A DNA stretch of 64,000 nucleotides from Halichondria panicea (lineage: Eukaryota > Porifera > Demospongiae > Suberitida > Halichondriidae). Below are positions 1 to 48,831 of this stretch, piece by piece; position 1 is the first letter of the stretch, and the number at the start of each line of letters is the position of its first letter. The position numbers and the translations under genes are program-made. The notes beneath the pieces were generated by a model. It made no database searches, was not told the origin of the DNA, and saw only the letters and a list, made by a program, of their open reading frames with translations. The stretch spans positions 5,866,250 through 5,930,249 of the forward strand of contig NC_087390.1 of assembly GCF_963675165.1 (NCBI RefSeq), written 5' to 3'.

Positions 1-131
1 CAACATACTTCACCGGATATTGTACGATCGTGCTTTGATGCTTTAAACAATTATAACTGACCATCACTTAAAATTACCTGGGCACAGACTGTTACATGTA
101 CAGTGTAGGTAGAATGATTGAATGACCTCAC

Positions 132-3100
132 CTATAATGTCGACGTTTGCCTTTGCAATGGAATCTTTTGTGGCCCTCTCCACATGCTTGGAGATATACA
201 GTTCACAGAGTGACATGAGCCGACTCATCACGTATCTGTTGAAGGGGAGGAGTCAATAAGGCATGTGATACACAAGCTCTGAAAATAACAAGGTCTTTAC
301 TTTAATAATAATTATACTGTATAGCGGGTTATTTTCGAAGCACTAAATTTTCGCGGATTGCCCTAACTAAAATATTTTGAGGATAGTGGTTCAAATGACC
401 ACACCCCTACAGTAAACCAATTTTTCGAGGCACTAAATTTTCGTGTTTGTGGGTCATCCTCGAAAATAACCAGCTATACGGTATTTGAGGGGTTGGATGT
501 ACAGTATACGTGCCTATAATTATACGTGCCTATAATTATACGAGCCTATAATTATACATGCCTATAATTATGTACCGTAGACCATTATACTCAAAACCAA
601 ACTCACGGGGCAACACTACTCCTAAACTCAGCAATTTCCTTCACCTGTTGGCCAGCTCCAATATTCCCATAGAGTCCCCCTCCTCAATGGGGGCGTGGTC
701 AGTGTACAGGTACTCTAGGAAACTCACAAACGTGTCCAATGGAATATCAGGGATGGATATCTGAGGAGGGAGTTGATTACTTAAATTCTATTGGAATTCG
801 AAAATAGAAATAAACGCATGGTTGCTAAGCAACTACAGTAGGGCATCTCTGTGACTCTGTGACTTGCGGGTAGAGCTAGCTTTAAGAATATAACGTACGT
901 AGAATGGAACACGAACACAAAGTGCATGCTAACAAACAGAGTCGTCTATTTGGGAGATGCTTCTTGTGTGCTGAATTCTCTGATTCTAGGAATAATAAAT
1001 TCAATTTTTCGAAAGAAGTGAGGTAATAATTAATTTTTGTGATTAGCTATCTGTCGCTATGACAACCTACCTCGTTAGCTGCACTCTCTTGGAAGGCTCC
1101 AGACAACATGGCCGACATGACCTCACATCGTGTGGTCAGTACTAGTCGATGGGCAGGGACAACCACACCCTCCACCAGGAAACACACGTCAGAGAACAAT
1201 CCCTGTGTGTGTGTGTGTGTGGGTGTGTGTGGGTGTGTGTGGGTGTGTGTGTGGGTGTGTGTAGTGTGTGGGTGGTGTGTGTGGATGTGGCAAGTCTTTG
1301 CTTTTTAAAAACACAATATTACAGATCTCTCTAAACGCTGATATATTCGGAACTCAAAATCAGTTAATTACGATAATAAGATGTGCACAAAATTTAATAA
1401 CCAGCACAAAAATGGCAAACCTTGTTGAGAAATAGTTGCTTAGTGACACTGATATTTCGATCATTCAACCACGTTATAATTTTCTGATTCAGAAACTCCT
1501 CCCCTTTACGAACATTCTCACACATGAGCTCCAACTCGGGTAAATTCAGCAGCTGAGAAATCTTGATTGTTTCGTCGAAACCTTCGCTCTCTTTGTCTAG
1601 TTCCACCACTCCAGTGTAGAGGAACGTTAGGGCACGAGATAGCGCCAGCTCTGTCACCATGGAGGGGTCAAAGGTCATCTCTGTCACCTGTTTACCGTCC
1701 GAGTCAGGTCTATAGCAAACAAAAAATTTCATCATACACATTTTTGTGTATGATTTATCGTAAAACGCACTCAAAAACTAAGAATTGATAGACAAAGTGT
1801 GTATATTATTCTCTTAATTACCTGTCTTCAATGTGGAGCATTCCCTCCAGCTGCCCCAAGTTTACCGTCTCCATGGTAACCTTCTTTAGTCGTGCCTTGT
1901 CCCACCCATCACATAGACTATCAACCTGGAGGAGGTGGGAGAGTGGACACAAAGCCATTGCTTAATTGGAACACTGTAATATACAGAGCACTCGGTACTT
2001 TACGTCTCACAACCATATACTGGTAATGATACAGTATTTGAGCCTATAGCAGCAACTACCAGAATTATACAGAGGAAAATAAGATTTGAACGTTATGACG
2101 AGACTTTAAGAACGGTATATAGTGGTGGCATGCAGTCGAACAGCAACTGGAATAAATGCTCAAAGTCTCCATAGCATGTGTTTGGACCTGTGTTAGCAGG
2201 CCACCCTCTAGAATACAGCCAGGTTAATGGGCCCCAAAGTCTCTCCATAGCATGTGTTTGGACCTGTGTTAGCAGGCCACCTCTTTATTACAGCCACTGT
2301 TGGTCTGCCCAAGAGTGACCATCATAGATGTGTGGTATCCACAGCATTTGCCGAGATACGCAGGAACTAAATAGACAAACCTCACCTTAACTTCCTGAGT
2401 CACTCCGAGCAGCTGTCTAAACAAATCTGAAGCAGATGCTAGCACATAGCGATGGGCATGATACGTCTTGCCCTCCAGTCTCAAGACCATGTCCGAATGA
2501 GATGGGTTGTTTATCGTTTTTGCCCGATCAGAGGAAAACGTTGAAATTTGGACTTTTATTGCGGGTGCTTTTTTATGGTCTGGTAGTTGAGGGGGCGGGG
2601 AGGGTCCGCTGACATTTGTTGAAAATGATTGGTCGGATGATTGGGAGCGCCTGTAAGGAAAGTTACAAGGTGACAATAATGTAAACCAGATTTGACTAAT
2701 GCAGTGAAACCTGTCTATAGTGGTCACCCTTGGGCAGACCAACAGTGGCTGTATTCTAGAGGGTGGCCTGCTAACACAGGTCTAAACACATGCTACGGAG
2801 ACTTTGAGGCCCATTACCTAGCGATACCGTTTAGGGGGTTATTTTCGAGGCACTCAATTTTTGCGAATTGGTCAAACTAAACATTCTGCGGATTTCATTT
2901 TCGAGGATAGAGGTTCAAACGACCACACCCCTAGGCGGCAGTAGAAAGGTCATTCAATACCGGAAGTAAACGAGCCACTAAACTTCTGAGGTTCGAGATC
3001 AATCCGCAAAAATAAATATAGTACCTTGCCGCTATACGGCATTATATAGAATGCTTAGGATGACCATAAGGACAATACTCCTACTATTTCACTCACTGTT

Positions 3101-4760
3101 TTCTGCCTGCCCTTGTTAGCCCTGCCCTCACACAAAAGTCCATTGCCTCATTCACACCAGCTCCTGTTAGGGCACTTGTCTCATAGTAACCCACCGCTCC
3201 TGAGGGGAAGAGGGGGGAGGTCATACGGTTATCAGATACAAATAAATGTCACTTTCATACGTAACATTGGATTAAAACGTGCGTTCTTCTAGAAACTTTA
3301 CACACATTAAATAAAGCATCTTTGAACGGCCATAACTTTGTTCTGTTGGTGATATGATTTTTTGAAAAAGTTCAGCCAGGTTAATGGGCCCAAGTCTCCA
3401 TAGCATGTGTTTGGACCTGTGTTAGCAGGCCACCCTCTATAATACAGCCAGGTTAATGGGCCCAAGTCTCCATAGCATGTGTTTGGACCTGTGTTAGCAG
3501 GCCACCCTCTATAATACAGCCAGGTTAATGGGCCCAAGTCTCCATAGCATGTGTTTGGACCTGTGTTAGCAGGTCACCCTCTATAATACAGCCAGGTTAA
3601 TGGGCCCAAGTCTCCATAGCATGTGCTTGGACCTGTGTTAGCAGGTCACCCTCTATAATACAGCCAGGTTAATGGGCCCAAGTCTCCATAGCATGTGTTT
3701 GGACCTGTGTTAGCAGGCCACCCTCTATAATACAGCCAGGTTAATGAGTCCCAAAGTCTCCATAGCATGTGTTTGGACCTGTGTTAGCAGGCCACCCTCT
3801 ATAATACAGCCAGGTTAATGGGCCCAAGTCTCCATAGCATGTGTTTGGACCTGTGTTAGCAGACCACCCTCTATAATACAGCCAGGTTAATGGGCCCAAG
3901 TCTCCATAGCATGTGTTTGGACCTGTGTTAGCAGGCCACCCTCTATAATACAGCCAGGTTAATGGGCCCAAGTCTCCATAGCATGTGTTTGGACCTGTGT
4001 TAGCAGGCCACCCTCTATAATACAGCCAGGTTAATGGGCCCAAGTCTCCATAGCATGTGTTTGGACCTGTGTTAGCAGGCCACCCTCTACAATACAGCCA
4101 CTGTTGGTCTGCCCAAGGGTGACCACTAGAGACAGGGTTTCACTCTAGCAGAAATACGGAAGAATTCCTCACCAAGATCTTTTGCCAGTTGCAGAGCATC
4201 TTCGCGGGGGACCTCAGTGTAGTCACCATTGACCTCTTGACCTCTGAGGTCACACTTGAGCCCCAGTAGCAGCACAGGTGTGTTCGGACAAAAGTGACGA
4301 ACTTCAGGTATCCACTTCTCTTTGATGTTTGCAAATGAAATTGGATATTTTATGGAAAATGCAACAAGTAAAATGTCCGTCTGGGGATAGGAAAGTGGGC
4401 GGAGCCTATCATAGTCTTCTCCACCAACTGTAGAGAATTAGCGTATGTAATAAACCAGCAGATGTGTTTCAAGTGTCGAGAGAGAAAAATTTACACATCC
4501 ATAACTTCACAGTATTTGCTCAAACAGAATCAATATCATAATATATAATTACAAGTGCAAACGACAATCAGGTACGTACCTGTATCAAATGGCACCACTG
4601 TGACTGGTTTTCCGTCGACCATAATTAGAGAATAATAGCTTTCAAACAAAGTGGGGATGTATTCACTGGGGAATGAATTGGTCATCCATTGTATAAGAAA
4701 ACATGTTTTACCCACTGCACCATCTCCAACTATGACCACCTTCAGTTGCATGTGTGACAT
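132..4760 (-). CDS. RhoBTB-like gene 1 (class A), 3' end off the window
   Basis: Exons on the minus strand: 4580-4760, 4173-4427, 3097-3199, 2386-2650, 1822-1925, 1421-1709, 1071-1202, 645-760, 132-235. All have GT-AG borders and compatible phases. Exons 10 and 11 lie left of base 1, and bases 1-131 are intron 9. The product matches gene 2: P-loop GDGAVGKT, switch [11 protein letters not shown]3 reading [11 protein letters not shown]4 LKCD, then the BTB domains. It differs from gene 2 in a Met for Arg after FLIQW, Val for Ala in G3, and a shortened pyrimidine tract before exon 9. The 72-bp array in intron 2 has about 10 units. No break was seen in the nine visible exons. The start is the first ATG of the MSHM frame; a second ATG follows three codons on. 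Confidence 0.85.
314..483. mobile_element. MITE family M1 (TACNGTATAGCGGG ends), gene 1 intron 8
   Basis: Inverted ends ACTGTATAGCGGGTTATTTTCG and CGAAAATAACCAGCTATACGGT, with an internal repeat of GGCACTAAATTTTCG. The orthologous copy is present in intron 8 of every gene: about 6484-6653, 13579-13747, 20605-20842, 26310-26478, 32870-33108, 38468-38653 and 44107-44275. Copies in genes 4 and 6 are longer because an internal segment around GAGGTTCAAATGACCACACC is tandemly repeated. Confidence 0.8.
2825..3042. mobile_element. Second M1-like MITE, gene 1 intron 3
   Basis: Starts TACCGTTTAGGGGGTTATTTTCG and ends GCCGCTATACGGCA, with the same GAGGCACTCAATTTTTGCG body as family M1. Equivalent copies lie in intron 3 of all other array genes (for example about 8960-9185 and 23285-23490). 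Confidence 0.7.
3373..4099. repeat. 72-bp minisatellite, gene 1 intron 2 (about 10 units)
   Basis: Units begin CAGCCAGGTTAATGGGCCCA and end with CCACCCTCTATAATA; spacing of 72 bp was checked between successive CAGCC starts. Some units carry GAGTCCCAAAG or GGTCACC variants. The array ends in a segment (4099-4142) reading GGTGACCACTAGAGACAGGG that resembles the end of a CAGTGAAACCTGTC-type transposon. Confidence 0.92.
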
Positions 4761-5058: not shown

Positions 5059-8000
5059 TCAGGAGAGTCCTCGTCTCTTATGGCTCTTGACAGCTGCTCC
5101 ATCTTCTGATGTCCTGGGGGGGTCATCTGTAGTAGCGAGGGGATTGTCATGCATGGTGGGAGGTATATAGTACAGTGTCTACCCCCTGGGCAGATCATGG
5201 CCATGCAACAGTGGCTGCAATAAAGAGGGTCCAAACACATGCTATGGAGAGTCTGGGATCCATTAACCTGGCTGTATTATAGAGGGTGGCCTGCTTATAA
5301 GTTATAGTTATAACGTGGGCACGAGGGCTGAGTGCAATATATGCCATGCATCTCAAGGGCATAGCAACATAACACTGTCTTAGTAACACAATTAATAAAT
5401 AGAACTGCACAAAATGACAGAGACAACGCTATAGACACATCTGCATTTGCAGCGTATACGATTTGCATGCATGGACCAACGAATGGCTTATAGCCTCACC
5501 TCACTATAAAACGGCCCCATTCCACTACTGCTGCAAAACTCCACCGTCAGTACTCGACCAGCCCTCCTATATATATGTACGGTCTACCCTCACAACCAAG
5601 CCAAAGAAGCTCGCCTCTACACTGCTGTAAACAGCTCAAGCCCCCAGTAAAAAAAGCCGCTTCCATAGATGCTTATAGTATTATGGTGAAGCAGAATTAA
5701 AGGACTTATCTAAGCCATGCATCATGCACGAGGACTAGACTAGGAACACAGAATCTTCCACAAAATAAACCTTGGACAATTTTAAAACCTGCATGGTTGC
5801 ACTTTGATACTCGTATTTCTCATCATGCTATTTAATTATGTCAGTCTGACTATAAACCACACCTACCTGACTCCTCCCCCTCAGTATCGAGGTACTTGGC
5901 CTTATACTCATTCATAGCGGCCTCGTAAGGTGGCCATCGATGCTCCTCCACATAAGAGAGGTTGTCTTGGTCCAATTGCAGGAATTGTTCATTTTCCTCA
6001 AAATCAGCATAATTGCTTGATATGAAGTGGAGGCACCAAGTGCTGAGCTGAGACGCGTTGTGCAGCTGTGAGGAGAGCAGGATTCCTGTGTGTGTGTGTG
6101 GGGGGAGTGGGCGTTGGAAATGTGTGGAGTGGGTGTTGGGTGGGTGTGTGTGTGTGGGGAGTGGGCGTTATATTTGGCTGGCAACATATTTGTATGATCG
6201 TGCTTTGATGCTTTAAACAATTATAACTGACCATCACTTAAAATTATTTGGGCACAGACTGTTACATGTAGGTAGAATGATTGAATGACCTCACCTATAA
6301 TGTCGACGTTTGCCTTTGAAATAGAATCTTTAGTAGCCCTCTCCACATGCTTGGAGATATACAGTTCACAGAGTGACATGAGCCGACTCATCACGTACCT
6401 GTTGTGAGGGAGAGGGGAGGAGTCAATAAGGCATGTGATACACAAGCTCTGAAAATAACAAGGTCTTTACTTTAATAATAATTATACTGTATAGCGGGTT
6501 ATTTTCGAAGCACTAAATTTTCGTGGATTGCCCTAACTAAAATATTTTGAGGATAGTGGTTCAAATAACCACACCCCTACAGTAAACCAATTTTTCAAGG
6601 CACTAAATTTTCGTGTTTCTGGGTCATCCTCGAAAATAACCAGCTATACGGTATTTGAGGAGTTGGATGTACAGTATACGTGCCTATAATTATACGTGCC
6701 TATAATTATACGTGCCTATAATTATGCACCGTAGACCATTATACTCAAAACCAAACTCACGGCAACACTCCTAAACTCAACAATTTCCTTCACCTGTTGG
6801 CCAGCTCCAATATTCCCATAGAGTCCCCCTCCTCAATGGGGGCGTGGTCAGTGTACAGGTACTCTAGGAAACTCACAAACGTGTCCAATGGAATATCAGG
6901 GATGGATATCTGAGGAGGGAGTTGATTACTTAAATTCTATTGGAATTCGAAAATAGAAATAAACGCATGGTTGCTAAGCAACTACAGTAGGGCATCTCTG
7001 TGACACTGTGACTTGCGGGTAGAGCTAGCTTTAAGAATATAACGTATGTAGAATGGAACATGAACACAAAGTACATGCTAACAAACAGAGTCGTCTATTT
7101 GGGAGATGCTTCTTGTGTGCTGAATTCTCTGATTCTAGGAATAATAAATTCAATTTTTCGAAAGAAGTGAGGTAATAATTAATTTTTGTGATTAGCTATC
7201 TGTCGCTATGACAACCTACCTCGTTAGCTGCACTCTCTTGGAAGGCTCCAGACAACATGGCCGACATGACCTCACATCGTGTGGTCAGTACTAGTCGATG
7301 GGCGGGGACAACCACACCCTCCACCAGGAAACACACGTCAGAGAACAATCCCTGTGTGTGTGGGTGGGTGTGTGTGTGGGTGTGTGTGTGTGTGTGGGTG
7401 TGTGGTGGTGATAAAACATACGTCTTTGCTTCTATCGAGCAATGTATTTTAAATGGATCTCCCTAAAGATGATATATCTGGACTCAAAAATCAGTTAATC
7501 ATGATAGTAAGATGCACAGGCAAGTACGAGATAACCAGCACAAAAATGGCATACCTTGTTGAGAAATAGTTGCTTAGTGACACTGGCATGTCGATCATTC
7601 AACCACGTTATAATTTTCTGATTAAGAAACTCCTCCCCTTTACGAGCATTCTCACACATGAGCTCCAACTCGGGTAAATTCAGCAGCTGAGAAATCTTGA
7701 TTGTTTCGTCGAAACCTTCGCTCTCTTTGTCTAGTTCCACCACTCCAGTGTAGAGGAACGTTAGGGCACGAGATAGCGCCAGCTCTGTCACCATGGAGGG
7801 GTCAAAGGTCATCTCTGTCACCTGTTTACCGTCCGAGTCAGGTCTATAGCAAACAAAAAATTTCATCATACACATTTTTGTAGAAAAATTTATCGTAAAA
7901 CGCACTCAAAAACTAAGAATTGATAGACAAAGTGTGTACATTATTCTCTTAATTACCTGTCTTCAATGTGGAGCATTCCCTCCAGCTGCCCCAAGTTTAC

Positions 8001-11000
8001 CGTCTCCATGGTAACCTTCTTTAGTCGTGCCTTGTCCCACCCATCACATAGACTATCAACCTGGAGGAGGTGGGAGAGTGGACACAAAGCCATTGCTTAA
8101 TTGGAACACTGTAATATACAGAGCACTCGGTACTTTACGTCTCACAACCATATACTGGTAATGATACAGTATTTGAGCCTATAGCAGCAACTACCAGAAT
8201 TATACAGAGGAAAATAAGATTTGAACGTTATGACGAGACTTTAAGAACGGTATATAGTGGTGGCATGCAGTCGAACAGCAACTGGAATAAATGCTCAAAG
8301 TCTCCATAGCATGTGTTTGGACCTGTGTTAGCAGGCCACCCTCTAGAATACAGCCAGGTTAATGGGCCCCAAAGTCTCTCCATAGCATGTGTTTGGACCT
8401 GTGTTAGCAGGCCACCTCTTTATTACAGCCACTGTTGGTCTGCCCAAGAGTGACCATCATAGATGTGTGGTATCCACAGCATTTGCCGAGATACGCAGGA
8501 ACTAAATAGACAAACCTCACCTTAACTTCCTGAGTCACTCCGAGCAGCTGTCTAAACAAATCTGAAGCAGATGCTAGCACATAGCGATGGGCATGATACG
8601 TCTTGCCCTCCAGTCTCAAGACCATGTCCGAATGAGATGGGTTGTTTATCGTTTTTGCCCGATCAGAGGAAAACGTTGAAATTTGGACTTTTATTGCTGG
8701 TGCTTTTTTATGGTCTGGTAGTTGAGGGGGCGGGGAGGGTCTGCTGACATTTGTTGAAAATGATTGGTCGGATGATTGGGAGCGCCTGTAAGGAAAGTTA
8801 CAAGGTGACAATAATGTAAACCAGATTTGACTAATGCAGTGAAACCTGTCTATAGTGGTCACCCTTGGGCAGACCAACAGTGGCTGTATTCTAGAGGGTG
8901 GCCTGCTAACACAGGTCCAAACACATGCTACGGAGACTTTGAGGCCCATTACCTAGCGATACCGTTTAGGGGGTTATTTTCGAGGCACTCAATTTTTGCG
9001 AATTGGTCAAACTAAACATTCTGCGGATTTCATTTTCGAGGATAGAGGTTCAAACGACCACACCCCTAGGCGGCAGTAGAAAGGTCATTCAATACCGGAC
9101 GTAAACGAGCCACTAAACTTCTGAGGTTCGAGGTCAATCCGCAAAAATAAATATAGTGCCTTGAAAACAACCCGCTATACGGCATTATATAGAATGCTTA
9201 GGATGACCATAAGGACAATACTCCTACTATTTCACTCACTGTTTTCTGCCTGCCCTTGTTAGCCCTGCCCTCACACAAAAGTCCATTGCCTCATTCACAC
9301 CAGCTCCTGTTAGGGCACTTGTCTCATAGTAACCCACCGCTCCTGAGGGGAAGAGGGGGGAGGTCATACGGTTATCAGATACAAATAAATGTCACTTTCA
9401 TACGTAACATTGGATTAAAACGTGCGTTCTTCTAGAAACTTTACACACATTAAATAAAGCATCTTTGAACGGCCATAACTTTGTTCTGTTGGTGATATGA
9501 TTTTTTGAAAAAGTTCAGCCAGGTTAATGGGCCCAAGTCTCCATAGCATGTGTTTGGACCTGTGTTAGCAGGCCACCCTCTATAATACAGCCAGGTTAAT
9601 GGGCCCAAGTCTCCATAGCATGTGTTTGGACCTGTGTTAGCAGGCCACCCTCTATAATACAGCCAGGTTAATGGGCCCAAGTCTCCATAGCATGTGTTTG
9701 GACCTGTGTTAGCAGGTCACCCTCTATAATACAGCCAGGTTAATGGGCCCAAGTCTCCATAGCATGTGTTTGGACCTGTGTTAGCAGGTCACCCTCTATA
9801 ATACAGCCAGGTTAATGGGCCCAAGTCTCCATAGCATGTGTTTGGACCTGTGTTAGCAGGCCACCCTCTATAATACAGCCAGGTTAATGTCCCAAAGTCT
9901 CCATAGCATGTGTTTGGACCTGTGTTAGCAGGCCACCCTCTATAATACAGCCAGGTTAATGGGCCCAAGTCTCCATAGCATGTGTTTGGACCTGTGTTAG
10001 CAGGTCACCCTCTATAATACAGCCAGGTTAATGGGCCCAAGTCTCCATAGCATGTGTTTGGACCTGTGTTAGCAGGCCACCCTCTATAATACAGCCAGGT
10101 TAATGAGTCCCAAAGTCTCCATAGCATGTGTTTGGACCTGTGTTAGCAGGCCACCCTCTATAATACAGCCAGGTTAATGGGCCTCAAAGTTTCCATAGCA
10201 TGTGTTTGGACCTGTGTTAGCAGGTCACCCTCTATAATACAGCCAGGTTAATGGGCCCAAGTCTCCATAGCATGTGTTTGGACCTGTGTTAGCAGGCCAC
10301 CCTCTATAATACAGCCAGGTTAATGGGCCCAAGTCTCCATAGCATGTGTTTGGACCTGTGTTAGCAGGTCACCCTCTATAATACAGCCAGGTTAATGGGC
10401 CCAAGTCTCCATAGCATGTGTTTGGACCTGTGTTAGCAGGCCACCCTCTATAATACAGCCAGGTTAATGGGCCCAAGTCTCCATAGCATGTGTTTGGACC
10501 TGTGTTAGCAGGCCACCCTCTATAATACAGCCAGGTTAATGAGTCCCAAAGTCTCCATAGCATGTGTTTGGACCTGTGTTAGCAGGCCACCCTCTATAAT
10601 ACAGCCAGGTTAATGGGCCTCAAAGTTTCCATAGCATGTGTTTGGACCTGTGTTAGCAGGTCACCCTCTATAATACAGCCAGGTTAATGGGCCCAAGTCT
10701 CCATAGCATGTGTTTGGACCTGTGTTAGCAGGCCACCCTCTATAATACAGCCAGGTTAATGGGCCCAAGTCTCCATAGCATGTGTTTGGACCTGTGTTAG
10801 CAGGTCACCCTCTATAATACAGCCAGGTTAATGGGCCCAAGTCTCCATAGCATGTGTTTGGACCTGTGTTAGCAGGCCACCCTCTATAATACAGCCAGGT
10901 TAATGGGCCCAAGTCTCCATAGCATGTGTTTGGACCTGTGTTAGCAGGTCACCCTCTATAATACAGCCAGGTTAATGGGCCCAAGTCTCCATAGCATGTG

Positions 11001-11845
11001 TTTGGACCTGTGTTAGCAGACCACCCTCTATAATACAGCCAGATTAATGGGCCCAAGTCTCCATAGCATGTGTTTGGACCTGTGTTAGCAGGCCACCCTC
11101 TATAATACAGCCAGGTTAATGGGCCCAAGTCTCCATAGCATGTGTTTGGACCTGTGTTAGCAGGCCACCCTCTACAATACAGCCACTGTTGGTCTGCCCA
11201 AGGGTGACCACTATAGACAGGGTTTCACTCTAGCAGAAATACGGAAGAATTCCTCACCAAGATCTTTTGCCAGTTGCAGAGCATCTTCGCGGGGGACCTC
11301 AGTGTAGTCACCATTGACCTCTTGACCTCTGAGGTCACACTTGAGCCCCAGTAGCAGCACAGGTGTGTTCGGACAAAAGTGACGAACTTCAGGTATCCAC
11401 TTCTCTTTGATGTTTGCAAATGAAATTGGATATTTTATGGAAAATGCAACAAGTAAAATGTCCGTCTGGGGATAGGAAAGTGGGCGGAGCCTATCATAGT
11501 CTTCTCCACCAGCTGTAGAGAATTAGCGTATGTAATAAACCAGCAGATGTGTTTCAAGTGTCGAGAGAGAAAAATTTACACATCCATAACTTCACAGTAT
11601 TTGCTCAAACAGAATCAATATCATAATATATAATTACAAGTGCAAACGACAATCAGGTACGTACCTGTATCAAATGGCACCACTGTGACTGGTTTTCCGT
11701 CGACCATAATTAGAGAATAATAGCTTTCAAACAAAGTGGGGATGTATTCACTGGGGAATGAATTGGTCCTCCATTGTATAAGAAAACATGTTTTACCCAC
11801 TGCACCATCTCCAACTATGACCACCTTCAGTTGCATGTGTGACAT
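5059..11845 (-). CDS. RhoBTB-like gene 2 (class A), Rac-like GTPase with two BTB domains
   Basis: Exons: 11665-11845, 11258-11512, 9240-9342, 8521-8785, 7957-8060, 7555-7843, 7220-7351, 6794-6909, 6295-6398, 5867-6085, 5059-5126; 611 residues joined. Residues 1-180 are a Rac-like G domain: P-loop 12-19, switch [10 protein letters not shown] 34-42, MVDGKPV before G3, [10 protein letters not shown] from 59, G4 LKCD 117-120, G5 TSAL near 153. A Pro-rich linker leads to BTB1 (from [10 protein letters not shown], about 231), which is split by an insertion, as is typical of RhoBTB. BTB2 begins at GLFSDVCF (about 400). The RhoBTB C-terminal region follows (EEHRWPP in exon 10). The protein ends in basic KSHKRRGLS with no CAAX box. 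RhoBTB proteins are known CUL3 adaptors and usually lack prenylation; by analogy this is a cytosolic or vesicle-associated adaptor. Gly63 replaces Rac Gln61, so hydrolysis is probably impaired. Length fits the family (about 600-700). Confidence 0.88.
5296..5845. mobile_element. Dispersed ~550-bp element, gene 2 intron 10
   Basis: The segment from the TAACGTGGGCACGAGGGCTG end through CACAACCAAGCCAAAGAAGC to CCTGCATGGTTGCACTTTG recurs inverted in the DNAJ-like gene (about 56720-57430). Copies sit in intron 10 of each array gene: starts near 12390, 19490, 25160, 31755, 37280 and 42965. Those in genes 4 and 6 lack the last part. No protein coding capacity was recognised. Confidence 0.65.
9516..11182. 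repeat. 72-bp minisatellite, gene 2 intron 2 (about 23 units)
   Basis: Same unit as in gene 1. The array shows a higher-order pattern: a block ending in a GAGTCCCAAAG unit followed by a GGGCCTCAAAGTTT unit occurs twice (near 10100-10200 and 10530-10630), pointing to internal block duplication. It fills most of intron 2. Confidence 0.92.
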
Positions 11846-24793: not shown

Positions 24794-24936
24794 TTACATT
24801 CCAATCTTATGAATATCATTATTTTAATACCACACTACTATAGAAGTGATAATTCAGTGAAAAGTGATGGAATAAAAATCACACAAAAGTGCAACAGTTT
24901 GATCCACTTGTCATTAATGAACAGTCAGGAGAGTCC

Positions 24937-36908: not shown

Positions 36909-39900
36909 CTACATTCCAAGCCTATGATAATTAATTAATATTCAGTGAAAATATTCAGTGAAAAGTGATGGAATAAAAATCAATGGCACAAAAGTGCATG
37001 CTAACACGAACAGAGTAACAGTTTCCGTCTAGTTGATCTACTTGAACAGTCAGGAGAGTCCTCGTCTCTTATGGCTCTTGACAGCTGCTCCATCTTCTGA
37101 TGTCCTGGGGGGGTCATCTGTAGTAGCGAGGGGATTGTCATGCATGGTGGGAGGTATATAGTACAGTGTCTACCCCCTGGGCAGATCATGGCCATGCAAC
37201 AGTGGCTGCAATAAAGAGGGTCCAAACACATGCTATGGAGAGTCTGGGGTCCATTAACCTGGCTGTGTATTAACTTATAGAGGGTTATAAGTTATAGTTA
37301 TAACGTGGGCACGAGGGCTGAGTGCAATATATGCCATGCATCTCAAGGGCATAGCAACATAACACTGTCTTAGTAACACAATTAATAAATAAAACTGCAC
37401 AAAATGACAGAGACAACACTATAGACACATCTACATCTGCAGCGTATAAGATGGGCATGCATGGACCAACGAATGGTTTATAGCCTCACCTCACTATAAA
37501 ACGGCCCCATTCCACTACTGCTGCAAAACTCCACCGTCAGTGCTCGACCAGCCCTCCTATATATATGTACGGTCTACCCTCACAACCAAGCCAAAGAAGC
37601 TCGCCTCTACACTGCTGTAAACAGCTCAAGCCCCCAGTAAAAACAGCCGCTTCCATAGATGCTTATAGTATTATGGTGAAGCAGAATTAAAGGACTTATC
37701 TAAGCCATGCATCATGCACGAGGACTAGACTAGGAACACAGAATCTTCCACAAAATAAACCTTGAACAATTTAAAAACCTGCATGGTTGCACTTTGATAC
37801 TCGTATTTCTCATCATGCTATTTAATTATGTCAGTCTGACTATAAACCACACCCACCTGACTCCTCCCCCTCAGTATCGAGGTACTTGGCCTTATACTCG
37901 TCCATAGCGGCCTCGTAAGGTGGCCATCGATGCTCCTCCACATAAGAGAGGTTGTCTTGGTCCAATTGCAGGAATTGTTCATTTTCCTCAAAATCAGCGT
38001 AATTGCTTGATATGAAGTGGAGGCACCAAGTGCTGAGCTGAGACGCATTGTGCAGCTGTGAGGAGAGCAGGATTCCTGTGTGTGTGTGTGGGGGGAGTGG
38101 GCGTTGGGTATGTGTGGAGTTGGTGTGTGTGTGTGTGGGGAGTGGGTGTTATATTTGGCTGGCAACAGGATATTGTACGATGGTGCTTTGATGCTTTAAA
38201 CAATTATAACTGACCATCACTTAAAATTATCTGAGCACAGACTGTTACATGTAGGTAGAATGATTGAATGACCTCACCTATAATGTCGACGTTTGCCTTT
38301 GCAATGGAATCTTTAGTGGCCCTTTCCACATGCTTGGAGATATACAGTTCACAGAGTGACATGAGCCGACTCATCACGTACCTGTTGTGAGGGAGAGGGA
38401 AGGAGTCAATAAGGCATGTGATACACAAGCTCTGAAAATAACAAGATCTTTACTTTAATAATAATTATACTGTATAGCGGGATATTTTCGAGGCACTAAA
38501 TTTTCGCGGATTGCCCTAACTAAAATATTTTGAGGATAGTGGTTCAAATGACCACACCCCTACAGTAAACAATTTTTCGAGGTACTAAATTTTCGTGTTT
38601 CTGGGTCATCCTCGAAAATCTCGAAAATCTCAAAAATAACCAGCTATACGGTATTTGAGGGGTTGGATGTACAGTATACGAGCCTATAATTATGCGTGCC
38701 TATAATTATACGTGCCTATAATTATGCGTGCCTATAATTATGTACCGTAGACCATTATACTCAAAACCAAACTCACGGCAACACTCTTAAACTCAACAAT
38801 TTCCTTCACCTGTTGGCCAGCTCCAATATTCCTATAGAGTCCCCCTCCTCAATGGGGGCATGGTCAGTGTACAGGTACTCTAGGAAACTCACAAACGTGT
38901 CCAATGAAATATCAGGGATGGATATCTGAGGAGGGAGTTGATTACTTAAATTCTATTGGAATTCGTAAATAGAAATAAACGCATGGTTGTTAGCAATTAC
39001 AGTAGCGGATCTCTGTGACTTGGTAGAGCTAGCTATAAAAGCGTATGGAATATAACGTAAGTAGAATGGAACATGAACACAAAGTACATGCTAACAAACA
39101 GAGTCGTCTATTTGGGAGATGCTTCTTGTGTGCTGAATTCTCTGATTCTAGGAATAATAAATTCAATTTTTCGAAAGAAGTGAGGCAATAATTAATTTTT
39201 GTGATTAGCTATCTGTCTCTATGACAACCTACCTCGTTAGCTGCACTCTCTTGGAAGGCTCCAGACAACATGGCCGACATGACCTCACATCGTGTGGTCA
39301 GTACTAGTCGATGGGCAGGGACAACCACACCCTCCACCAGGAAACACACGTCAGAGAACAATCCCTGTGTGTGGGTGTGTGTGGTGTGTGTGTGTGTGGT
39401 GGTGATAAACATACGTCTTTGCTTCTATCGAGCAATGTATTTTAAATGGATCTCCCTAAAGATGATATATCTGGACTCAAAAATCAGTTAATCATGATAA
39501 TAAGATGCACAGGCAAGTACGAGATAACCAGCACAAAAATGGCATACCTTGTTGAGAAATAGTTGCTTAGTGACACTGACATTTCGATCATTCAACCACG
39601 TTATAATTTTCTAATTAAGAAACTCCTCCCCTTTACGAGCATTCTCACACATGAGCTCCAACTCGGGCAAATTCAGCAGCTGAGAAATCTTGATTGTTTC
39701 GCTGAAACCTTCGCTCTCTTTGTCTAGTTCCACCACTCCAGTGTAGAGGAATGTTAGGGCACGAGATAGCGCCAGCTCCGTCACCACATAGGGGTCAAAG
39801 GTCATCTCTGTCACCTGCTTACCGTCCGAGTCAGGTCTATAGCAAACAAAAATAATAAACAGACCGTTTTTAGAAAAAAATTTGTCATTACAATAAAATA

Positions 39901-39933
39901 AATGTTATTTATACAAAGTGTGGTGTACAATTA

Positions 39934-40112
39934 CAGTGGAACCTCTGTTAACAACCACCTCCGAATAAAGGCCAGCTGTTATATAACGGCCATCAGGCAC
40001 TCAGGTACCAAATGAACAGTTTGTGTACAAAACAACCTCTCAACAAAGGCACCCTCTGTATAGTGGCCAAAACATTATTCCCCAAAGGTGTCCGTTATAG
40101 AGGGTTCCACTG
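39934..40112. mobile_element. 179-bp pogo-like MITE at the gene 7 intron 5 donor
   Basis: Same element, length and TA-flanked site as in gene 4, so it was inherited by duplication. Confidence 0.8.
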
Positions 40113-41604
40113 TACCTTTCATCAATGTGGAGCATTCCCTCCAGCTGCCCCGAGTTGACTGTCTCCACAGTAACCTTCTTTAGTCGTGCCTTGTCCCACC
40201 CATCACACAGACTATCAACCTGGAGGAGGTGGGAGAGTGGACATTAAAGGAATCACTTAATTGGAACACTGTAATATACAGAGCACTCGGTACTTCACGT
40301 CTCACAACCATACTGGTAATGATACAGTATTTGAGCCTATAGCAGCAACTACCAGAAGAAAATAAGATTTGAACGTTATGACGAGGCTTTAAGAACGGTA
40401 TATATAGTGGTGGCATGCAGTTGAACAGCAACTGGAATAAATGTGAGAAATATTTTCCAGCTAGTTAAAATAGGCCTCAAAGTCTCCTAAGCATGTGTTT
40501 GGACCTGTGTTAGCAGACAACCTCTTTATTAGAGCCACTGTTGGTCTGCCCAAGAGTGACCATCATAGATGTGTGGTATCCACAGCATTTGTCGAGATAC
40601 GTAGGAACTAATAGAAAACCTCACCTTAACTTCCTGAGTCACTCTGAGCAGCAGTCTAAACAGATCTGAAGCAGATGCCAACACATAGCGATGGGCATGA
40701 TACGTCTTGCCCTCCAGTCTCAAGACCACGTCCGAATGAGATGGGTTGTTTATCGTTTTTGCCCGATCGGAGGAAAACGTTGAACTTTGGACTTTTATTG
40801 CGGGCGCTTTTTTATGGTCTGGTAGTTGAGGGGGCGGGGAAGGTCCGCTGACATTTGTTGAAAATGATTGGTCGGATGATTGGGAGCGCCTGTAAGGAAA
40901 GTTACAAGGTGACAATAATGTAAACCAGATTTGACTAATGCAGTGAAACCTGTCTATATAGTGGTCACCAACAGTGGCTGTACTAATAATTATACAGGGT
41001 GGCCTGCTAAGTAACACAGGTATAAACACATGCTACAAAAACTTTGAGGCCCATTACCTAGCGATATCGTTTAAGGGGTTATTTTCGAGGCACTAAATTT
41101 TTGCGGATAATTATTTTGCGGATCTCATTTTCGAGGATAGAGGTTCAAATGACCACACCCCTAGGCAGCAGTAGAAAGGTCTTCCAATACCGGAAGTAAA
41201 CGAGCCACTAAACTTTTTAAGTTCGAGGTCAATCCGCAAAAATATAGTGCCTTGCCGCTATACGGCATTATATAAAATGCTTAGGATGACCATAAGGACA
41301 ATACTCCTACTATTTCACTTACCGTTTTCTGCCTGCCTCTTGTTTTTCCCTTGCTAGCCCTGCCCTCATACCAGCGTCCATTGCCTCCATCACACCAGCT
41401 CCTGTTAGGGCACTTGTCTCATAGTAACCCACCGCTCCTGAGGGGGGAGGTCATACGGTTATTAGATACCCATAAATGTTCCTTTCGTACGTAACATTGG
41501 ATTAAAATGTGCGTGCTTCTAGAAATTTTTACACATGTTAAATGAAGCATCTTTGAACGGCCATAACTTTAGTTTCGTTGGTGATATGATTTTTTGAAAA
41601 AGCT

Positions 41605-41751
41605 CAGCCAGGTTAATGGGCCCAAGTCTCCATAGCATGTGTTTGGACCTGTGTTAGCAGGCCACCCTCTATAATACAGCCAGGTTAATAGGCCCCAAAG
41701 TCTCTATAGCATGTGTTTGGACCTATGTTAGCAGACCACCCTCTATAATAC
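41605..41751. repeat. 72-bp repeat, gene 7 intron 2 (2 units)
   Basis: Two units close to those of gene 4, without the GT insertion. Confidence 0.85.
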
Positions 41752-42589
41752 AGCCACTGTTGGTATGCCCCAGGGCGACCACTAGAGACAGGTTTTCACT
41801 CTGCAGAAATACGGCATAAATTCCTCACCAAGATCTTTTGCCAGTTGCAGAGCATCTTCGCGGGGGACCTCAGTGTAGTCACCATTGACCTCTTGACCTC
41901 TGAGGTCACACTGGAGCCCCAATAGCAGCACAGGTATGTTTGGACAAAAGTGACGAACTTCAGGTATCCACCTCTCTTTGATGTTTGCAAATGAGGTTGG
42001 ATATTTGATGGAAAATGCAACAAGGAAAATGTTCGTATCAGGATAGGAAATTGGGCGGAGCCTATCGTAGTGTTCTCCACCAACTGTAGAGAATTAGCAT
42101 ATGTGATTAAACTGTAGAGAATTAGCATATGTGATTAAACCAGCAGATGTGTTTCAAGGGTCGAGAGAAAAGATGTTTACATAAATCCATAACTTCACAT
42201 TATTTGCTCAAAAAGAATCAATATCATGTTTTATATATTACAAGTGCAAACGACATCATACAGTTAGGTACGTACCTGTATCCCATGGCAACACTATGAC
42301 TGGTTTTCCATCGACCATAATTTCGGCGGCATAGCTGTCAAACACAGTGGGGACGTAATCACTAGGGAATGAATTGGTGGTCCATCGAATGTAAAAACAT
42401 GTTTTACCCACTGCACCATCTCCAACCATGACCACCTTCACGTTTTGCATCTTCGAGAAAAAGATCTCAGTTGATCAATGTGTAAATACGGTAAAGGCAA
42501 ACTGGTAAAGGGTCTCTACATGTACATAGTAACTTGTACCTTGTACCCAGGAAGTCTGAAGGGCGTTTCTAATGTTTGCGGTTGAGAGA

Positions 42590-42597: not shown

Positions 42598-42740
42598 TTA
42601 CATTCCAATCCTATGAATATCATTATTTTAATACCACACTACTATAGAAGTGATAATTCAGTGAAAAGTGATGGAATAAAAATCACACAAAAGTGCAACA
42701 GTTTGATCCACTTGTCATTAATGAACAGTCAGGAGAGTCC

Positions 42741-45700
42741 TCATCTCTTGTGGTTCTTGACAGCTGCTCCATTGTCCGATGTTCTGGGGGGGTCACCTGT
42801 AGTAGCGAGGGGATTGTCATGCATGGTGGGAGGTATATAGTACAGTGTCTACCCCTTGGGCAGACCATGGCCATGCAACAGTGGCTGCAATAAAGAGGGT
42901 CCAAACACATGTTATGGGGAGTCTGGGGTCCATTAACCTGGCTGTATTATAGAGGGTGGCCTGCTTATATAAGTTATAGTTATAACGTGGGCACGAGGGC
43001 TGAGTGCAATATATGCCATGCACCTCGAGTGCACCTCCCAAGGACATAGCAACATAACACTAGCTGTCTTAGTAACAATAGAACTGCACAAAATGACAGA
43101 GACAACGCTATAGACACATCTACATCTGCAGCATATAAGATTTGCATGCATGGACCAATTAATGAATGGCTTATATGGCCTCACCTCACTATAAAACGGC
43201 CCCATTCCACTACTGCTGCAAAAACAGCTCCACCTACCACTGCTGCTCATCAGTGCTCGACCAGCCTCAAGTCCCCATTAAAAACAGCCGCTTCCATAGA
43301 TGCTTATAGTATTATGGTGAAGCAGAATTAAAGGACTTATCTACGCCATGCATCATGCACGAGGACTAGACTAGGAACACAGAATCTTCCACAAAATAAA
43401 CCTTGGACAATTTTAAAACCCTCATGGTTGCACTTTGATACTCGTATTTCTCATCATGCTATTTAATTATGTCAGTATGACTATAAACCACACCCACCTG
43501 ACTCCTCCCCCTCAGTATCGAGGTACTTGGCCTTATACTCATTCATAGCGGCCTCGTAAGGTGGCCATCGATGCTCCTCCACATAAGAGAGGTTGTCTTG
43601 GCCCAATTGCAGGAATTGTTCATTTTCCTCAAAATCAGCGTAATTGCTTGATATGAAGTGGAGACACCAAGTGCTGAGCTGAGACGCATTGTGCAGCTGT
43701 GAGGAGAGCAGGATTTCTGTGTGTGTGTGGGGGGAGTGGGCGTTGGGTATGTGTGGAGTGGGGAGTGGGTGTTATATTTGGCTGGCAACATACTTCACAG
43801 GATATTGTACGATCGTGCTTTGATGCTTTAAACAATTATAACTGACCATCACTTAAAATTACCTGGGCACAGACTGTTACATGTACAGTGTAGGTAGAAT
43901 GATTGAATGACCTCACCTATAATGTCGACGTTTGCCTTTGCAATGGAATCTTTAGTGGCCCTCTCCACATGCTTGGAGATATACAGTTCACAGAGTGACA
44001 TGAGCCGACTCATCACGTACCTGTTGTGAGGGAGAGGGAAGGAGTCAACAAGGCATGTGATACACAAGCTCTGAAAATAACAAGGTCTTTACTTTAATAA
44101 TAATTATACTGTATAGCGGGCTATTTTCGAAGCACTAAATTTTCGCGGATTGCCCTAACTAAAATATTTCGAGGATAGTGGTTCAAATGACCACACCCCT
44201 ACAGTAAACCAATTTTTCGAGGCACTAAATTTTCGTGTTTCTGGGTCATCCTCGAAAATAACCAGCTATACAGTATTTGAGGGGTTGGATGTACAGTATA
44301 CGTGCCTATAATTATACGTGCCTATAATTATACGAGCCTATAATTATACGTGCCTATAATTATACGTGCCTATAATTATACATGCCTATAATTATACGAG
44401 CCTATAATTATACGTGCCTATAATTATACGTGCCTATAATTATGCACCGTAGACCATTATACTCAAAACCAAACTCACGGCAACACTCCTAAACTCAACA
44501 ATTCCCTTCACCTGTTGGCCAGCTCCAATATTCCCATAGAGTCCCCCTCCTCAATGGGGGCGTGGTCAGTGTACAGGTACTCTAGGAAACTCACAAACGT
44601 GTCCAATGAGATATCAGGGATGGATATCTGAGGAGGGAGTTGATTACTTAAATTCTATTGGAATTCGAAAATAGAAATAAACGCATGGTTGCTAAGCAAC
44701 TACAGTAGGGCATCTCTGTGACTATGTGACTTGCGGGTAGAGCTAGCTTTAAGAATATAACGTACGTAGAATGGAACATGAACACAAAGTACATGCTAAC
44801 AAACAGAGTCGTCTATTTGGGAGATGCTTCTTGTGTGCTGAATTCTCTGATTCTAGGAATAATAAATTCAATTTTTCGAAAGAAGTGAGGCAATAATTAA
44901 TTTTTGTGATTAGCTATCTGTCGCTATGACAACCTACCTCGTTAGCTGCACTCTCTTGGAAGGCTCCAGACAACATGGCCGACATGACCTCACATCGTGT
45001 GGTCAGTACTAGTCGATGGGCGGGGACAACCACACCCTCCACCAGGAAACACACGTCAGAGAACAATCTCTGTGTGGGTGTGTGTGGGTGTGTGGTGTGT
45101 GTGGGTGTGTGGTGTGTGTGTGTGTGGTGGTGATAAACATACGTCTTTGCTTCTATCGAGCAATGTATTTTAAATGGATCTCCCTAAAGATGATATATCT
45201 GGACTCAAAAATCAGTTAATCATGAAAGTAAGATGCACAGGCAAGTACGAGATAACCAGCACAAAAATGGCATACCTTGTTGAGAAATAGTTGCTTAGTG
45301 ACACTGGCATGTCGATCATTCAACCACGTTATAATTTTCTGATTAAGAAACTCCTCCCCTTTACGAGCATTCTCACACATGAGCTCCAACTCGGACAAAT
45401 TCAGCAGCTGAGAAATCTTGATTGTTTCGCTGAAACCTTCGCTCTCTTTGTCTAGTTCCACCACTCCAGTGTAGAGGAACGTTAGGGCACGAGATAGCGC
45501 CAGCTCCATCACCACAGAGGGGTCAAAGGTCATCTCTGTCACCTGCTTACCGTCCGAGTCAGGTCTATAGCAAACAAAAATCACAAATAATAAACAGACC
45601 GTTTTTAGAAAAAAATTTGTCATTACAACAAAATAAATGTTATTTATACAAAGTGTGGTGTACAATTACAGTGGAACCTCTGTTAACAACCACCTCCGAA

Positions 45701-48088
45701 TAAAGGCCAGCTGTTATATAACGGCCATCAGGCACTCAGGTACCAAATGAACAGTTTGTGTACAAAACAACCTCTCAACAAAGGCCACCTCTGTATAGTG
45801 GCCAAAACATTATTCCCCAAAGGTGTCCGTTATAGAGGGTTCCACTGTACCTTTCATCAATGTGGAGCATTCCCTCCAGCTGCCCCGAGTTGACCATCTC
45901 CATGGTAACCATCTTTAGTTGTGCCTTGTCCCAGCCATCACACAGACTATCAACCTGGAGGAGGTGGGAGAGTGGACACAAAGCCATCGCTTAATTGGAA
46001 CACTGTACTATACAGAGCACTCGGTACTTCACGTCTCACAACCATACTGGAATGATACAGTGTTTGAGCCTATAGCAGCAACTACCAGAATTATACAGAG
46101 GAAAATAAGATTTGAACGTTATGACGAGGCTTTAAGAACGGTATATAGTGGTGGCATGCACTCGAACAGCAACTGGAATAAATATGAGAAATATTAGTTA
46201 TTAAGTCTCCATAGCATGTGTTTGGACCTGTGTTAGCAGGCCACCTCTTTACTACAGCCACTGTTGGTCTGCCCAGGAGTGACCATCATAGATGTGTGGT
46301 GTCCACAGTACTTGCCGAGATACGCAGGAACTAAATAGACAAACTTCACCTTAACTTCCTGAGTCACTCCAAGCAGCTGTCTAAACAGATCTGAAGCAGA
46401 CGCCAACACATAGCGATGGGCATGATACGTCTTGCCCTCCAGTCTCAAGACCACGTCCGAATGAGATGGGTTGTTTATCATTTTTGCCCGATCAGAGGAA
46501 AACGTTGAACTTTGGACTTTTATTGTGGGCGCTTTTTTATGGTCTGGTAGTTGAGGGGGCGGGGAGGGTCCGCTGACATTTGTTGAAAATGATTGGTCGG
46601 ATGATTGGGAGCGCCTGTACAGAGAGTTACAAGGTGACAATAATGTAAACCAGATTTGACTAATGCAGTGAAACCTGTCTATATAGTGGTCACCAACAGT
46701 GGCTGTACTAATAATTATACAGGGTGGCCTGCTAAGTAACACAGGTCTAAACACATGCTACAAAAACTTTGAGGCCCATTACCTAGCGATATCGTTTAAG
46801 GGGTTATTTTCGAGGCACTAAAATAATGTTTGCAGATAAATAATTATTTTGCGGATCTCATTTTCGAGGATAGAGGTTCAAATGACCACACCCCTAGGCA
46901 GCAGTAGAGAGGTCTTTCGATACTGGAAGTAAACGAGCCACTAAACTTTTGAGGTTCGAGGTCAATCCGGAAAAATATAGTGCCTTGAAAACAACCCGCT
47001 ATACGGCATTATAGAATGCTTAGGATGACCATAAGGACAATACTCCTACTATTTCACCCACCGTTTTCTGCCTACCCTTGTTAGTCCTGCCCTCACACAA
47101 AAGTCCATTGCCTCCATCACACCAGCTCCTGTTAGGGCACTTGTCTCATAGTAACCCACCGCTCCTGAGGGGAGGAGGGGGGAGGTCATACGGTTATCAG
47201 ATACAAATAAATGTCACTTTCATACGTAACATTGGATTAAAACGTGCGTGCTTCTAGAAACTTTTACACACGTTAAATGAAGCATCTTTGAACGGCCATA
47301 ACTTTAGTTTCGCTGGTGATATGATTTTTTGAAAAAGCTCAGCCAGGTTAATGGGCCCAAGTCTCCATAGCATGTGTTTGGACCTGTGTTAGCAGGCCAC
47401 CCTCTATAATACAGCCATTGTTGGTATACCCCAGGGTGACCACTAGAGACAGGGTTTCACTCTAGCAGAAATACGGAAGAAATTCCTCACCAAGATCTTT
47501 TGCCAGTTGCAGAGCATCTTCACAGGGGACCTCAGTGTAGTCACCATTGACCTCTTGACCTCTGAGGTCACACTGGAGCCCCAGTAGCAGCACAGGTATG
47601 TTCGGACAAAAATGACGAACTTCAGGTATCCACCTCTCTTTGATGTTTGCAAATAAGGTTGGATATTTGATGGAAAATGCAACAAGGAAAATGTTCGTAT
47701 CAGGATAGGAAATTGGGCGGAGCCTATCGTAGTCTTCTCCACCAACTGTAGAGAATTAGCATATGTGATTAAACCAGGAGATGTGTTTCAAGGGTCGAGA
47801 GAAAAGATGTTAATTTACATAAATCCATAACTTCACATTATTTGCTCAAAAAGAATCAATATCATGTTTTATATATTACAAGTGCAAACGACATCATACA
47901 GGTAGGTACGTACCTGTATCCCATGGCGCCACTCTGACTGGTTTTCCATCGACCATAATTTCGGCGGCATAGCCGCCAAACACAGTGGGGACGTAATCAC
48001 TGGGGAATGAATTGGTGCTCCATCGTATGAAAAAACATGTTTTACCCACTGCACCATCTCCAACTATGACCACCTTCACGTTTTGCAT
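42741..48088 (-). CDS. RhoBTB-like gene 8 (class B), most upstream complete copy
   Basis: Exons: 47914-48088, 47491-47745, 47062-47164, 46350-46614, 45851-45954, 45276-45564, 44938-45069, 44512-44627, 43917-44020, 43498-43716, 42741-42796; 605 residues. This is the most divergent copy. The G domain starts [18 protein letters not shown]; switch I is YVPTVFGGY, with Gly where Rac has Asp38, and G3/G4 are [10 protein letters not shown] and LQCD. BTB2 begins RLFSDV rather than GLFSDV because the base after the exon 7 acceptor changed. Exon 10 starts with Glu for Gly, and the first codon of exon 11 is Gly for Asp. The C-terminus is the class B form ending NHKR. Only one 72-bp unit is left in intron 2. 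All exons are open. Its upstream region carries a captured zinc-finger-like fragment. Confidence 0.86.
44301..44444. repeat. 16-bp tandem repeat, gene 8 intron 8 (9 units)
   Basis: Unit CGTGCCTATAATTATA with CGAG and CATG variants. Orthologous tracts next to the M1 element have 4 units in gene 1 (about 508-571), 3 in genes 2-4, 2 in genes 5 and 6 and 4 in gene 7, so the tract is length-variable. Confidence 0.88.
45669..45847. mobile_element. 179-bp pogo-like MITE at the gene 8 intron 5 donor
   Basis: Same element and TA-flanked site as in genes 4 and 7. Its presence in all class B and no class A copies makes it a marker of the class B lineage. Confidence 0.8.
47340..47416. repeat. 72-bp repeat, gene 8 intron 2 (single unit)
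   Basis: One unit in front of the terminal segment; probably close to the state before expansion. Confidence 0.8.
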
Positions 48089-48128
48089 ATTCTAGAAAAA
48101 GATCTCAGTTGATCAATGTGTAAATACG

Positions 48129-48193: not shown

Positions 48194-48281
48194 TAAGGCA
48201 AACTGGTAAAGGGTCTCTACATGTACATAGTAACTTGTACTTTGTACCCGGCGTTTCTAATGTTATGTTGCGGTTGAGATA

Positions 48282-48439: not shown

Positions 48440-48597
48440 GAGTCCTCGTCTCTTGTGGTTCTTGACAGCTTCCGATGTCCTGGGGGGGGGTCATCTGTAG
48501 TAGCGAGGGGATTGTCATGCATGGTGGGAGGTATATAGTACAGTGTCTACCCCCTGGGCAGATCATGGCCATGCAACAGTGGCTGCAATAAAGAGCA
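48440..48597 (-). pseudogene. Orphan, frameshifted RhoBTB last exon at the array edge
   Basis: The acceptor CTACAG and the start of exon 11 (GATGACCCC, from 48494 downward) match the last exon of the array genes. The C run is nine instead of seven long and a 9-bp segment is missing, so the frame no longer reads RTSE/DNGAAVK but GHRKLSRTT. Upstream similarity to the array's spacer repeat (GTCTACCCCCTGGGCAG ... GCTGCAATAAAGAG) stops abruptly near 48597, where unique sequence begins. No exons 1-10 follow. It is best read as the remnant left at the duplication breakpoint. Confidence 0.75.
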
Positions 48598-48831
48598 CTC
48601 GTTATAATTATGTTAGCTATGAACACACAGCTTGTTTGCTGCATTACATTACTAGCGATAACAGAATTTGTTCTATTAACAGTCCAAGCATTTGAAAAGG
48701 TGACAATACTATAGGCTAGCTATATAGGGACTGAGTAATTAACTAAAATTGATATACTGATATCTAAGAGCGTAAGTCTCATAATAATAGTCTCAGTCTC
48801 AAATTGTCAATATGCACTATATAATTATAGT
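48598..48831. other. Spacer between the RhoBTB array and the iminopeptidase gene
   Basis: Unique AT-rich sequence without a gene that I could recognise. It separates the array breakpoint from the 3' end of the iminopeptidase gene, which is transcribed in the same direction. Confidence 0.6.

Follow-up and report, generated by a model that had tools for sequence, protein, structure and literature searches.

A tandem array of RhoBTB-type genes with a variable Rac-like domain in the sponge Halichondria panicea

Introduction

RhoBTB proteins join a Rho-type GTPase to two BTB domains, and the number of genes given per animal ranges from none to three (PMC7600811 and PMC4931677 among the sources). 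According to one review, repeated by citation in a second, RhoBTB was not found in sponges (PMC7600811, PMC8305917). A 64,000-nucleotide stretch of the Halichondria panicea genome (NC_087390.1, forward-strand positions 5,866,250 to 5,930,249; hereafter the window) carries a tandem array of RhoBTB-type genes. This locus raises the question of whether so many copies form a diversified signalling or recognition system or are simply the product of an unstable locus, the two possibilities named in a first, sequence-only reading of the window. We consider it probable that the genes are a birth-and-death family of CUL3 adaptors of the RhoBTB type, in which a constant BTB2-BACK arm would be combined with a Rac-like recognition module that is diversifying and probably locked to GTP. 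Among the titles listed in the literature searches, where subscription papers and preprints were mostly outside reach, none named a RhoBTB expansion in a sponge.

Results

The window contains eight RhoBTB-type genes arranged head to tail on the minus strand, each with 11 coding exons. Exon 1 starts at 48097/48100, 42459, 36741, 31207, 24653, 18943, 11845 and 4760, respectively, for g1 to g8. Three approaches agree on the eight models, namely searches for the exons, alignment of nucleotides and spliced alignment of proteins. In the nucleotide alignment, in which splice sites were not forced, the internal junctions of g1 to g8 have AG before and GT after the exon throughout. This alignment is the independent evidence for the splice sites; it covers the copies on C14, the array contig, except g12inv (see below), and not those on contigs C4 and C8. 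The 280 of 280 canonical sites returned by the spliced aligner are so by construction, because the program forces GT-AG introns. Its exons of 4–7 bp near exon 3/4 in g11, g12inv and the second C4 copy were taken as alignment artefacts, and its exons 1–3 of g12inv are unreliable. Two GTPase types can be distinguished among the window genes, type A (g3, g4, g6, g7 and g8) and type B (g1, g2 and g5).

42729 to 48088, minus strand: g1, 11 exons, type B GTPase (WDTVGGEDY); last residues lost to a late stop
37050 to 42450, minus strand: g2, 11 exons, type B; exon 6 interrupted by an in-frame TAG that lies between BTB1 and BTB2
31516 to 36741, minus strand: g3, 11 exons, type A (FDTVGGEDY), intact; the reference model (611 aa, zero internal stops)
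24925 to 31207, minus strand: g4, 11 exons, type A; a late stop trims the last residues
19251 to 24644, minus strand: g5, recombinant with an open frame; exon 1 to intron 6 mostly g2-like (type B), g3-like from exon 7
12153 to 18943, minus strand: g6, type A, intact; unit nearly identical to that of g7
5059 to 11845, minus strand: g7, type A, intact; unit of approximately 7 kb nearly identical to that of g6
1 to 4760, minus strand: g8, type A, intact; exons 10 and 11 outside the window at -92 to -1127
-1395 to -2477: g9f, a fragment with exons 1–3 only
left of the window edge: g10 and g11, full genes in the continuation of the array
about -27 to -21 kb: g12inv, an inverted, diverged gene
49370 to 49569: 200-N assembly gap inside a (GA)n run, approximately 1.2 kb to the right of g1

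Thus, the sequence-only reading of at least eight head-to-tail copies with a common 11-exon structure in 48 kb was confirmed by alignment for eight genes. Corrections concern the in-frame TAG of g2, which probably precludes a full-length product, and the late stops of g1 and g4. The frames of g3, g5, g6, g7 and g8 are open to the end, and g1 and g4 miss only a few last residues. The array passes the left window edge, as had been supposed, since exons 10 and 11 of g8 lie beyond it, and 70 kb of left flank hold the exons 1–3 fragment, two more full genes and the inverted diverged gene. The gap is the sole N run in the 144 kb examined, and the array itself is N-free.

A search of the full genome, which the same reading had called for, was carried out with the BTB2-BACK part on 131.46 Mb in 39 contigs. 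Outside the array contig, it found two genes on C4 and one on C8. The genome total is at least 14 full-length models (all 11 exons, with g2 and its nonsense codon included) and one fragment, which upholds the proposed expansion over the none to three per animal given in the sources. A scan of viral contigs for relatives gave none; in a scan of prokaryote genomes, one 21-residue match in Pedobacter was taken as a chance match.

Pfam searches of the full-length protein identified a Ras domain at residues 7–170 (E 4.7e-39), two BTB stretches and a BACK match of 19.9 bits (cut-off 20.9), which rises to 23.2 bits when exons 7–11 are scanned alone. The first BTB domain is split into two stretches across exons 4–6 (E 1.7e-11) and the second was detected on exons 7–11 (E 9.6e-21). 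Between the GTPase and BTB1 lies a proline-rich linker, seen by eye as PSPPPQLP in the array and IPPPPQPP in the two C4 copies. Among solved structures, the GTPase half is nearest to Rac1 (201.7 bits), followed closely by Cdc42, and BTB2-BACK is nearest to the BTB-BACK region of SPOP, which is a CUL3 adaptor. None of 14 tails has a CAAX box; they end in RRGLS, HKR, KSH, RLFK or RLFK plus three residues. GDGAVGK(T/S) is the P-loop sequence of 11 of the 14 full models and, counting the fragment, of 12 of 15 copies.

RhoBTB proteins have this same succession of GTPase, proline-rich linker, split BTB1, BTB2 and BACK (PMC4931677). Two sequence details are named for the family, a Cys in the G4 motif and a changed G5 motif, S(V/I/S)(F/V/Y/L) (PMC7600811). 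The G4 Cys is present in 13 of 15 copies, with Ser in g11 and Tyr in the first C4 copy. The G5 change is lacking in 13 of 15 copies, where SA persists; the C8 copy has SS instead and the first C4 copy ST. Insertions in switch I are likewise absent from the array, as are the switch II deletion and the exchange of G12 for Asn; the source describes these three features for RhoBTB1 and RhoBTB2 and not for the whole family. We read the G5 change and the switch and G12 deviations as derived features of other lineages and not as family-defining. The proposed placement in RhoBTB is hence supported by a domain search, through the domain order and several, if not all, of the family-typical details.

The position of Rac1 Q61, a residue with a role in GTP hydrolysis, is occupied by Gly in 9 of 15 copies: all eight genes of the window and the fragment have a G3 motif of the form DT(A/V/G)GG. 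The Gln is kept in g10, g11, the second C4 copy and the C8 copy (DT(A/P)GQ); His stands in the first C4 copy, and the site is degenerate in g12inv. Since P-loop and switch I Thr are kept in all eight window genes while Q61 is lost, the GTPases of the array are predicted to bind GTP without hydrolysing it efficiently and thus probably stay GTP-bound.

Variation between the copies is not evenly distributed along the protein. Among g1 to g8, amino acid identity averages 97.5% for BTB2-BACK and 94.8% for BTB1 but falls to 90.3% for the GTPase and 81.2% for switch I-beta 3. For g3 against g2, the ratio of nonsynonymous to synonymous substitution rates (dN/dS) is 0.30 for BTB2-BACK, against 0.88 for the GTPase. 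Selection was tested with our own implementation of codon site models, M1a against M2a, with naive site posteriors at the fitted values. Twelve sets were run, all without g7, whose exons 1–3 equal those of g6, and six sets of exon 1 or the GTPase were relied on. For the GTPase, the likelihood ratio test (LRT) statistic was 15.3 in the array (p 5e-4) and rose to 25.3 (p 3e-6) when g10, g11, the second C4 copy and the C8 copy were added. Exon 1 alone gave 16.1 (p 3e-4) in this wider set. Of 200 planned null simulations for exon 1, 132 were finished and none reached this value (maximum 14.7). In the subset of the array with g10 and g11, taken up in the Discussion, the LRT with one gene per type was 7.40 (p 0.025). 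Exons 4–5 (LRT 2.80), exon 6 (2.05), exons 6–10 (1.63) and exons 7–10 (0.00) were not significant. The largest value, 58.5 for the GTPase with g12inv and the first C4 copy, was not relied on because switch I is poorly aligned in these two, and no other set included them. By exon, with exons 1, 2 and 4–10 covered, the signal lies in exon 1, and it is moderate in the cleanest data.

Half of the 24 sites with P>0.8 fall within 31 of 173 codons, those of switch I-beta 3 (Fisher p 9e-5, for an interval chosen after viewing the sites). Among these sites are those that correspond to Rac1 V36, 41–43, 54 and W56, numbered by an offset of 2 from the Rac1 alignment. This face of Rac binds regulators and effectors. 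The GTPase module is thus diversified, with signs of positive selection, which is evidence for the diversified system that the sequence-only reading had considered, with a proposed signalling or recognition role.

That the locus is unstable, as the same reading had suggested, is backed by a recombinant gene and a pair of near-identical units. At sites that differ between g2 and g3, g5 matches g2 through intron 6 and g3 from exon 7. Exon 6 is mixed, with 7 sites like g2 and 4 like g3; all 35 sites of intron 6 are like g2, whereas 9 of 9 in exon 9 and 32 of 32 in intron 10, for example, are like g3, which places the breakpoint at the intron 6/exon 7 boundary.

21410 to 21761, minus strand: intron 6 and exon 7 of g5, where the recombination breakpoint lies; directly next to exon 7 is a (TG/CA)n tract

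The break falls between BTB1 and BTB2; therefore, g5 has a GTPase-BTB1 half of type B and a BTB2-BACK half of type A. In g6, a type-B intron 6 lies within otherwise type-A sequence (34 to 4), which we read as a conversion tract. For nine genes, with g7 omitted as a near duplicate of g6, one tree was built from exon 1 through intron 5, intron 2 excluded, at the 5' end and a second from exon 7 through intron 10 at the 3' end. The two trees reject each other by the approximately unbiased (AU) test (p 1.8e-9 and 5.1e-8). Alignment ends aside, the units of g6 and g7 differ by 2 substitutions and one 4-bp indel in 6,951 aligned bases; the pair may have arisen by duplication very recently or be an artefact.

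Intron 2 varies in length from 326 to 1915 bp in g1 to g8. A 72-bp minisatellite is present in this intron in seven of the eight window genes with 2 to 23 copies.

9516 to 11185: intron 2 of g7, approximately 23 copies
16614 to 18283: intron 2 of g6, 23 copies
29314 to 30547: intron 2 of g4, 17 copies
3373 to 4100: intron 2 of g8, 10 copies
35932 to 36081: intron 2 of g3, 2 copies
23825 to 23978: intron 2 of g5, 2 copies
41605 to 41756: intron 2 of g2, 2 copies

A protein-coding role of the minisatellite was rejected, as its open reading frames (ORFs) fall in intron 2. By eye, related short arrays occur elsewhere in the gene array (e.g. 2169–2333 and 8304–8468), and a piece in reverse orientation lies upstream of exon 11.

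Other features of the window and the genome

To the right of the array, ORF pieces at 49092–50363 (minus strand) flank the 200-N gap and look like a proline iminopeptidase by eye; the piece at 49862–50110, the only one of them scanned, had no Pfam match. A single ORF at 50699–52018 (plus strand) encodes a protein of 439 aa, in which one membrane segment and long Asn/Leu-rich repeats are apparent by eye and for which no Pfam family scored above its cut-off. A Gly/Phe-rich ORF at 58460–58810 (plus strand) resembles the middle of DnaJ by eye and had no Pfam match, and an ORF at 60715–61821 (plus strand) scored 17.1 bits for the Ski/Sno/Dac homology domain, under the threshold of 24.5 bits.

Elsewhere in the genome, at least four very similar small-GTPase first exons are spread over approximately 140 kb of contig C5 (4.73–4.88 Mb; L020, L022, L023 and L024). 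By eye, we take them to be Rab11-like; they are another GTPase amplification in this genome. Four silicatein-type exons with CG(A/S)SYAF instead of CGSCWAF form two neighbouring pairs, at 659–668 kb of C2 (L037, L038) and 200–205 kb of C6 (L041, L042). Among 14 stretches from 77 cathepsin-type matches, 4 have the Ser-type site, 9 the Cys-type site and 1 (L044) neither motif. To our knowledge, silicateins of the CG(A/S)SYAF kind are confined to siliceous sponges, and the four exons mark this genome as very probably that of a member of the group. The Cys-to-Ser change has been described for sponge silicatein (PMC3820600). The sole COX1 match in the assembly is a short copy of mitochondrial cox1 on C1 (5280300–5280900; L046) in which TGA is readable as Trp.

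Discussion

The explanation that we favour as probable is a tandem RhoBTB array kept in flux by unequal exchange and gene conversion. Its Rac-like part would serve as a variable recognition module and its BTB part would recruit a CUL3 ubiquitin ligase, as known RhoBTBs do; this latter role is suggested by the family (PMC4931677) and by the cullin-family exons present in the genome. The array would then supply several adaptors that differ in partner specificity and share one conserved ligase arm.

Several observations weigh against this explanation. Between types A and B, dN/dS of exon 1 is approximately 0.9–1.1, as relaxed constraint would also give. In the cleanly aligned, gap-free subset (the array with g10 and g11), the LRT is only 8.05 for exon 1 (p 0.018) and 8.38 for the GTPase (p 0.015), and exon 2 alone is not significant (LRT 3.59, p 0.17). 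The site models favour positive selection on exon 1, but gene conversion can inflate such tests. Moreover, one of the eight window genes carries a nonsense codon, the BACK match of the full-length protein stays under the Pfam cut-off, and the G5 motif of 13 of 15 copies is without the change described for RhoBTB. The main rival is relaxed constraint on the GTPase, with which the p values of approximately 0.02 in the clean subset are compatible. In its full form, this rival is a neutral unstable locus where unequal crossing-over produces the copies, concerted evolution and dosage keep the BTB part and the GTPase is free to decay. We hold it to be possible, if doubtful. It would agree with the near-identical g6/g7 units and recombinant g5, with the nonsense codon of g2, the late stops of g1, g4 and the C8 copy and the fragment g9f, with exon-1 dN/dS near 1 and with the degenerate P-loop or switch I of g12inv and the first C4 copy. 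Decay of the GTPase is harder to reconcile with exons 1–3 that are free of stops after the first Met in 15 of 15 models, with P-loop and switch I Thr intact in all eight window genes, with the preference for M2a over M1a in the six sets relied on (LRT 7.4–25.3, p 0.025 to 3e-6) and with the clustering of hot sites in switch I-beta 3, an interval picked afterwards. That the copy number is inflated by assembly duplication or uncollapsed haplotypes is very unlikely in our opinion. The adjacent, almost identical units of g6 and g7 would be accounted for in this way, but a plain duplication is at odds with the differences between copies in intron 2 length and minisatellite copy number, in exon 1 (up to approximately 18% at the nucleotide level) and in mosaic patterns. 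The array is also N-free, and two more diverged genes, an inverted gene and three copies on other contigs exist.

Two further readings concern the origin and the use of the proteins. An independent fusion of Rac with BTB-BTB-BACK in sponges, which would not be a true RhoBTB, would explain the close match of the GTPase half to Rac1, the SA kept in the G5 motif of 13 of 15 copies and the lack of the switch I inserts, switch II deletion and G12 to Asn exchange of vertebrate RhoBTB1/2. Such a fusion would have had to arrive at the identical domain order with a split first BTB, a proline-rich linker, a BACK-like end, no CAAX box and, for 13 of 15 copies, the Cys that RhoBTB has in G4. Furthermore, RacA of Dictyostelium suggests that the fusion of GTPase and BTB is older than animals (PMC8305917), and we regard an independent origin as quite improbable. 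The other reading is that of an immune or decoy system. Rac is a common target of bacterial effectors and toxins and is contacted at switch I-beta 3 by regulators, effectors and microbial proteins, and the sponge is full of bacteria. A GTP-locked Rac look-alike on a CUL3 adaptor, diversified at this face, might act as a bait: whatever binds or modifies it would be ubiquitinated, and recombination between BTB1 and BTB2 would bring new baits to the constant ligase arm. This reading, based on the site pattern and on an analogy with the sensing of attacks on Rho GTPases (PMC8084149), seems rather improbable to us.

If the array is instead seen as the recombining adaptor family that we favour, it can be compared with several known systems. 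It shares with RhoBTB1, RhoBTB2 and RhoBTB3 of animals the Rho-type GTPase, proline-rich linker, split BTB1, BTB2 and, as a weak match, the BACK-like end (PMC4931677, PMC7600811), together with the G4 Cys in 13 of 15 copies and, as in RhoBTB1/2, the missing CAAX box. It differs in number, at least 14 full-length models against the one to three genes of those animals, in a Rac-like GTPase that lacks the insertions of the vertebrate proteins and keeps SA in G5 in 13 of 15 copies, and in the exchange of Q61 for Gly, the recombining array and the diversifying exon 1. The RhoBTB-like RacA of Dictyostelium is a single gene, and an array or diversification is not described in the available part of the source (PMC8305917).

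The substrate domains of the nematode MATH-BTB and F-box families evolve under positive selection. Like the sponge array, these families are expanded, copy-number-variable ubiquitin-ligase adaptors with a constant ligase arm and a variable partner-binding part (PMC2822765). In the sponge, the variable part is a Rac-like GTPase, copies are far fewer and the system is known from sequence alone. The loss of the Gln61 equivalent, and with it a probably GTP-bound state, recalls Rnd and RhoH, which are GTPase-deficient Rho proteins; unlike these, the GTPase of the sponge proteins is fused to BTB-BACK.

With at least 14 full-length models in a siliceous sponge, at least one sponge has kept RhoBTB. 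The array offers a compact natural experiment, in which the ligase arm has stayed constant while the GTPase was reshaped at its binding face and its catalytic residue is gone. If the copies do differ in the partners they bind, a small GTPase would here be used as a variable recognition domain.

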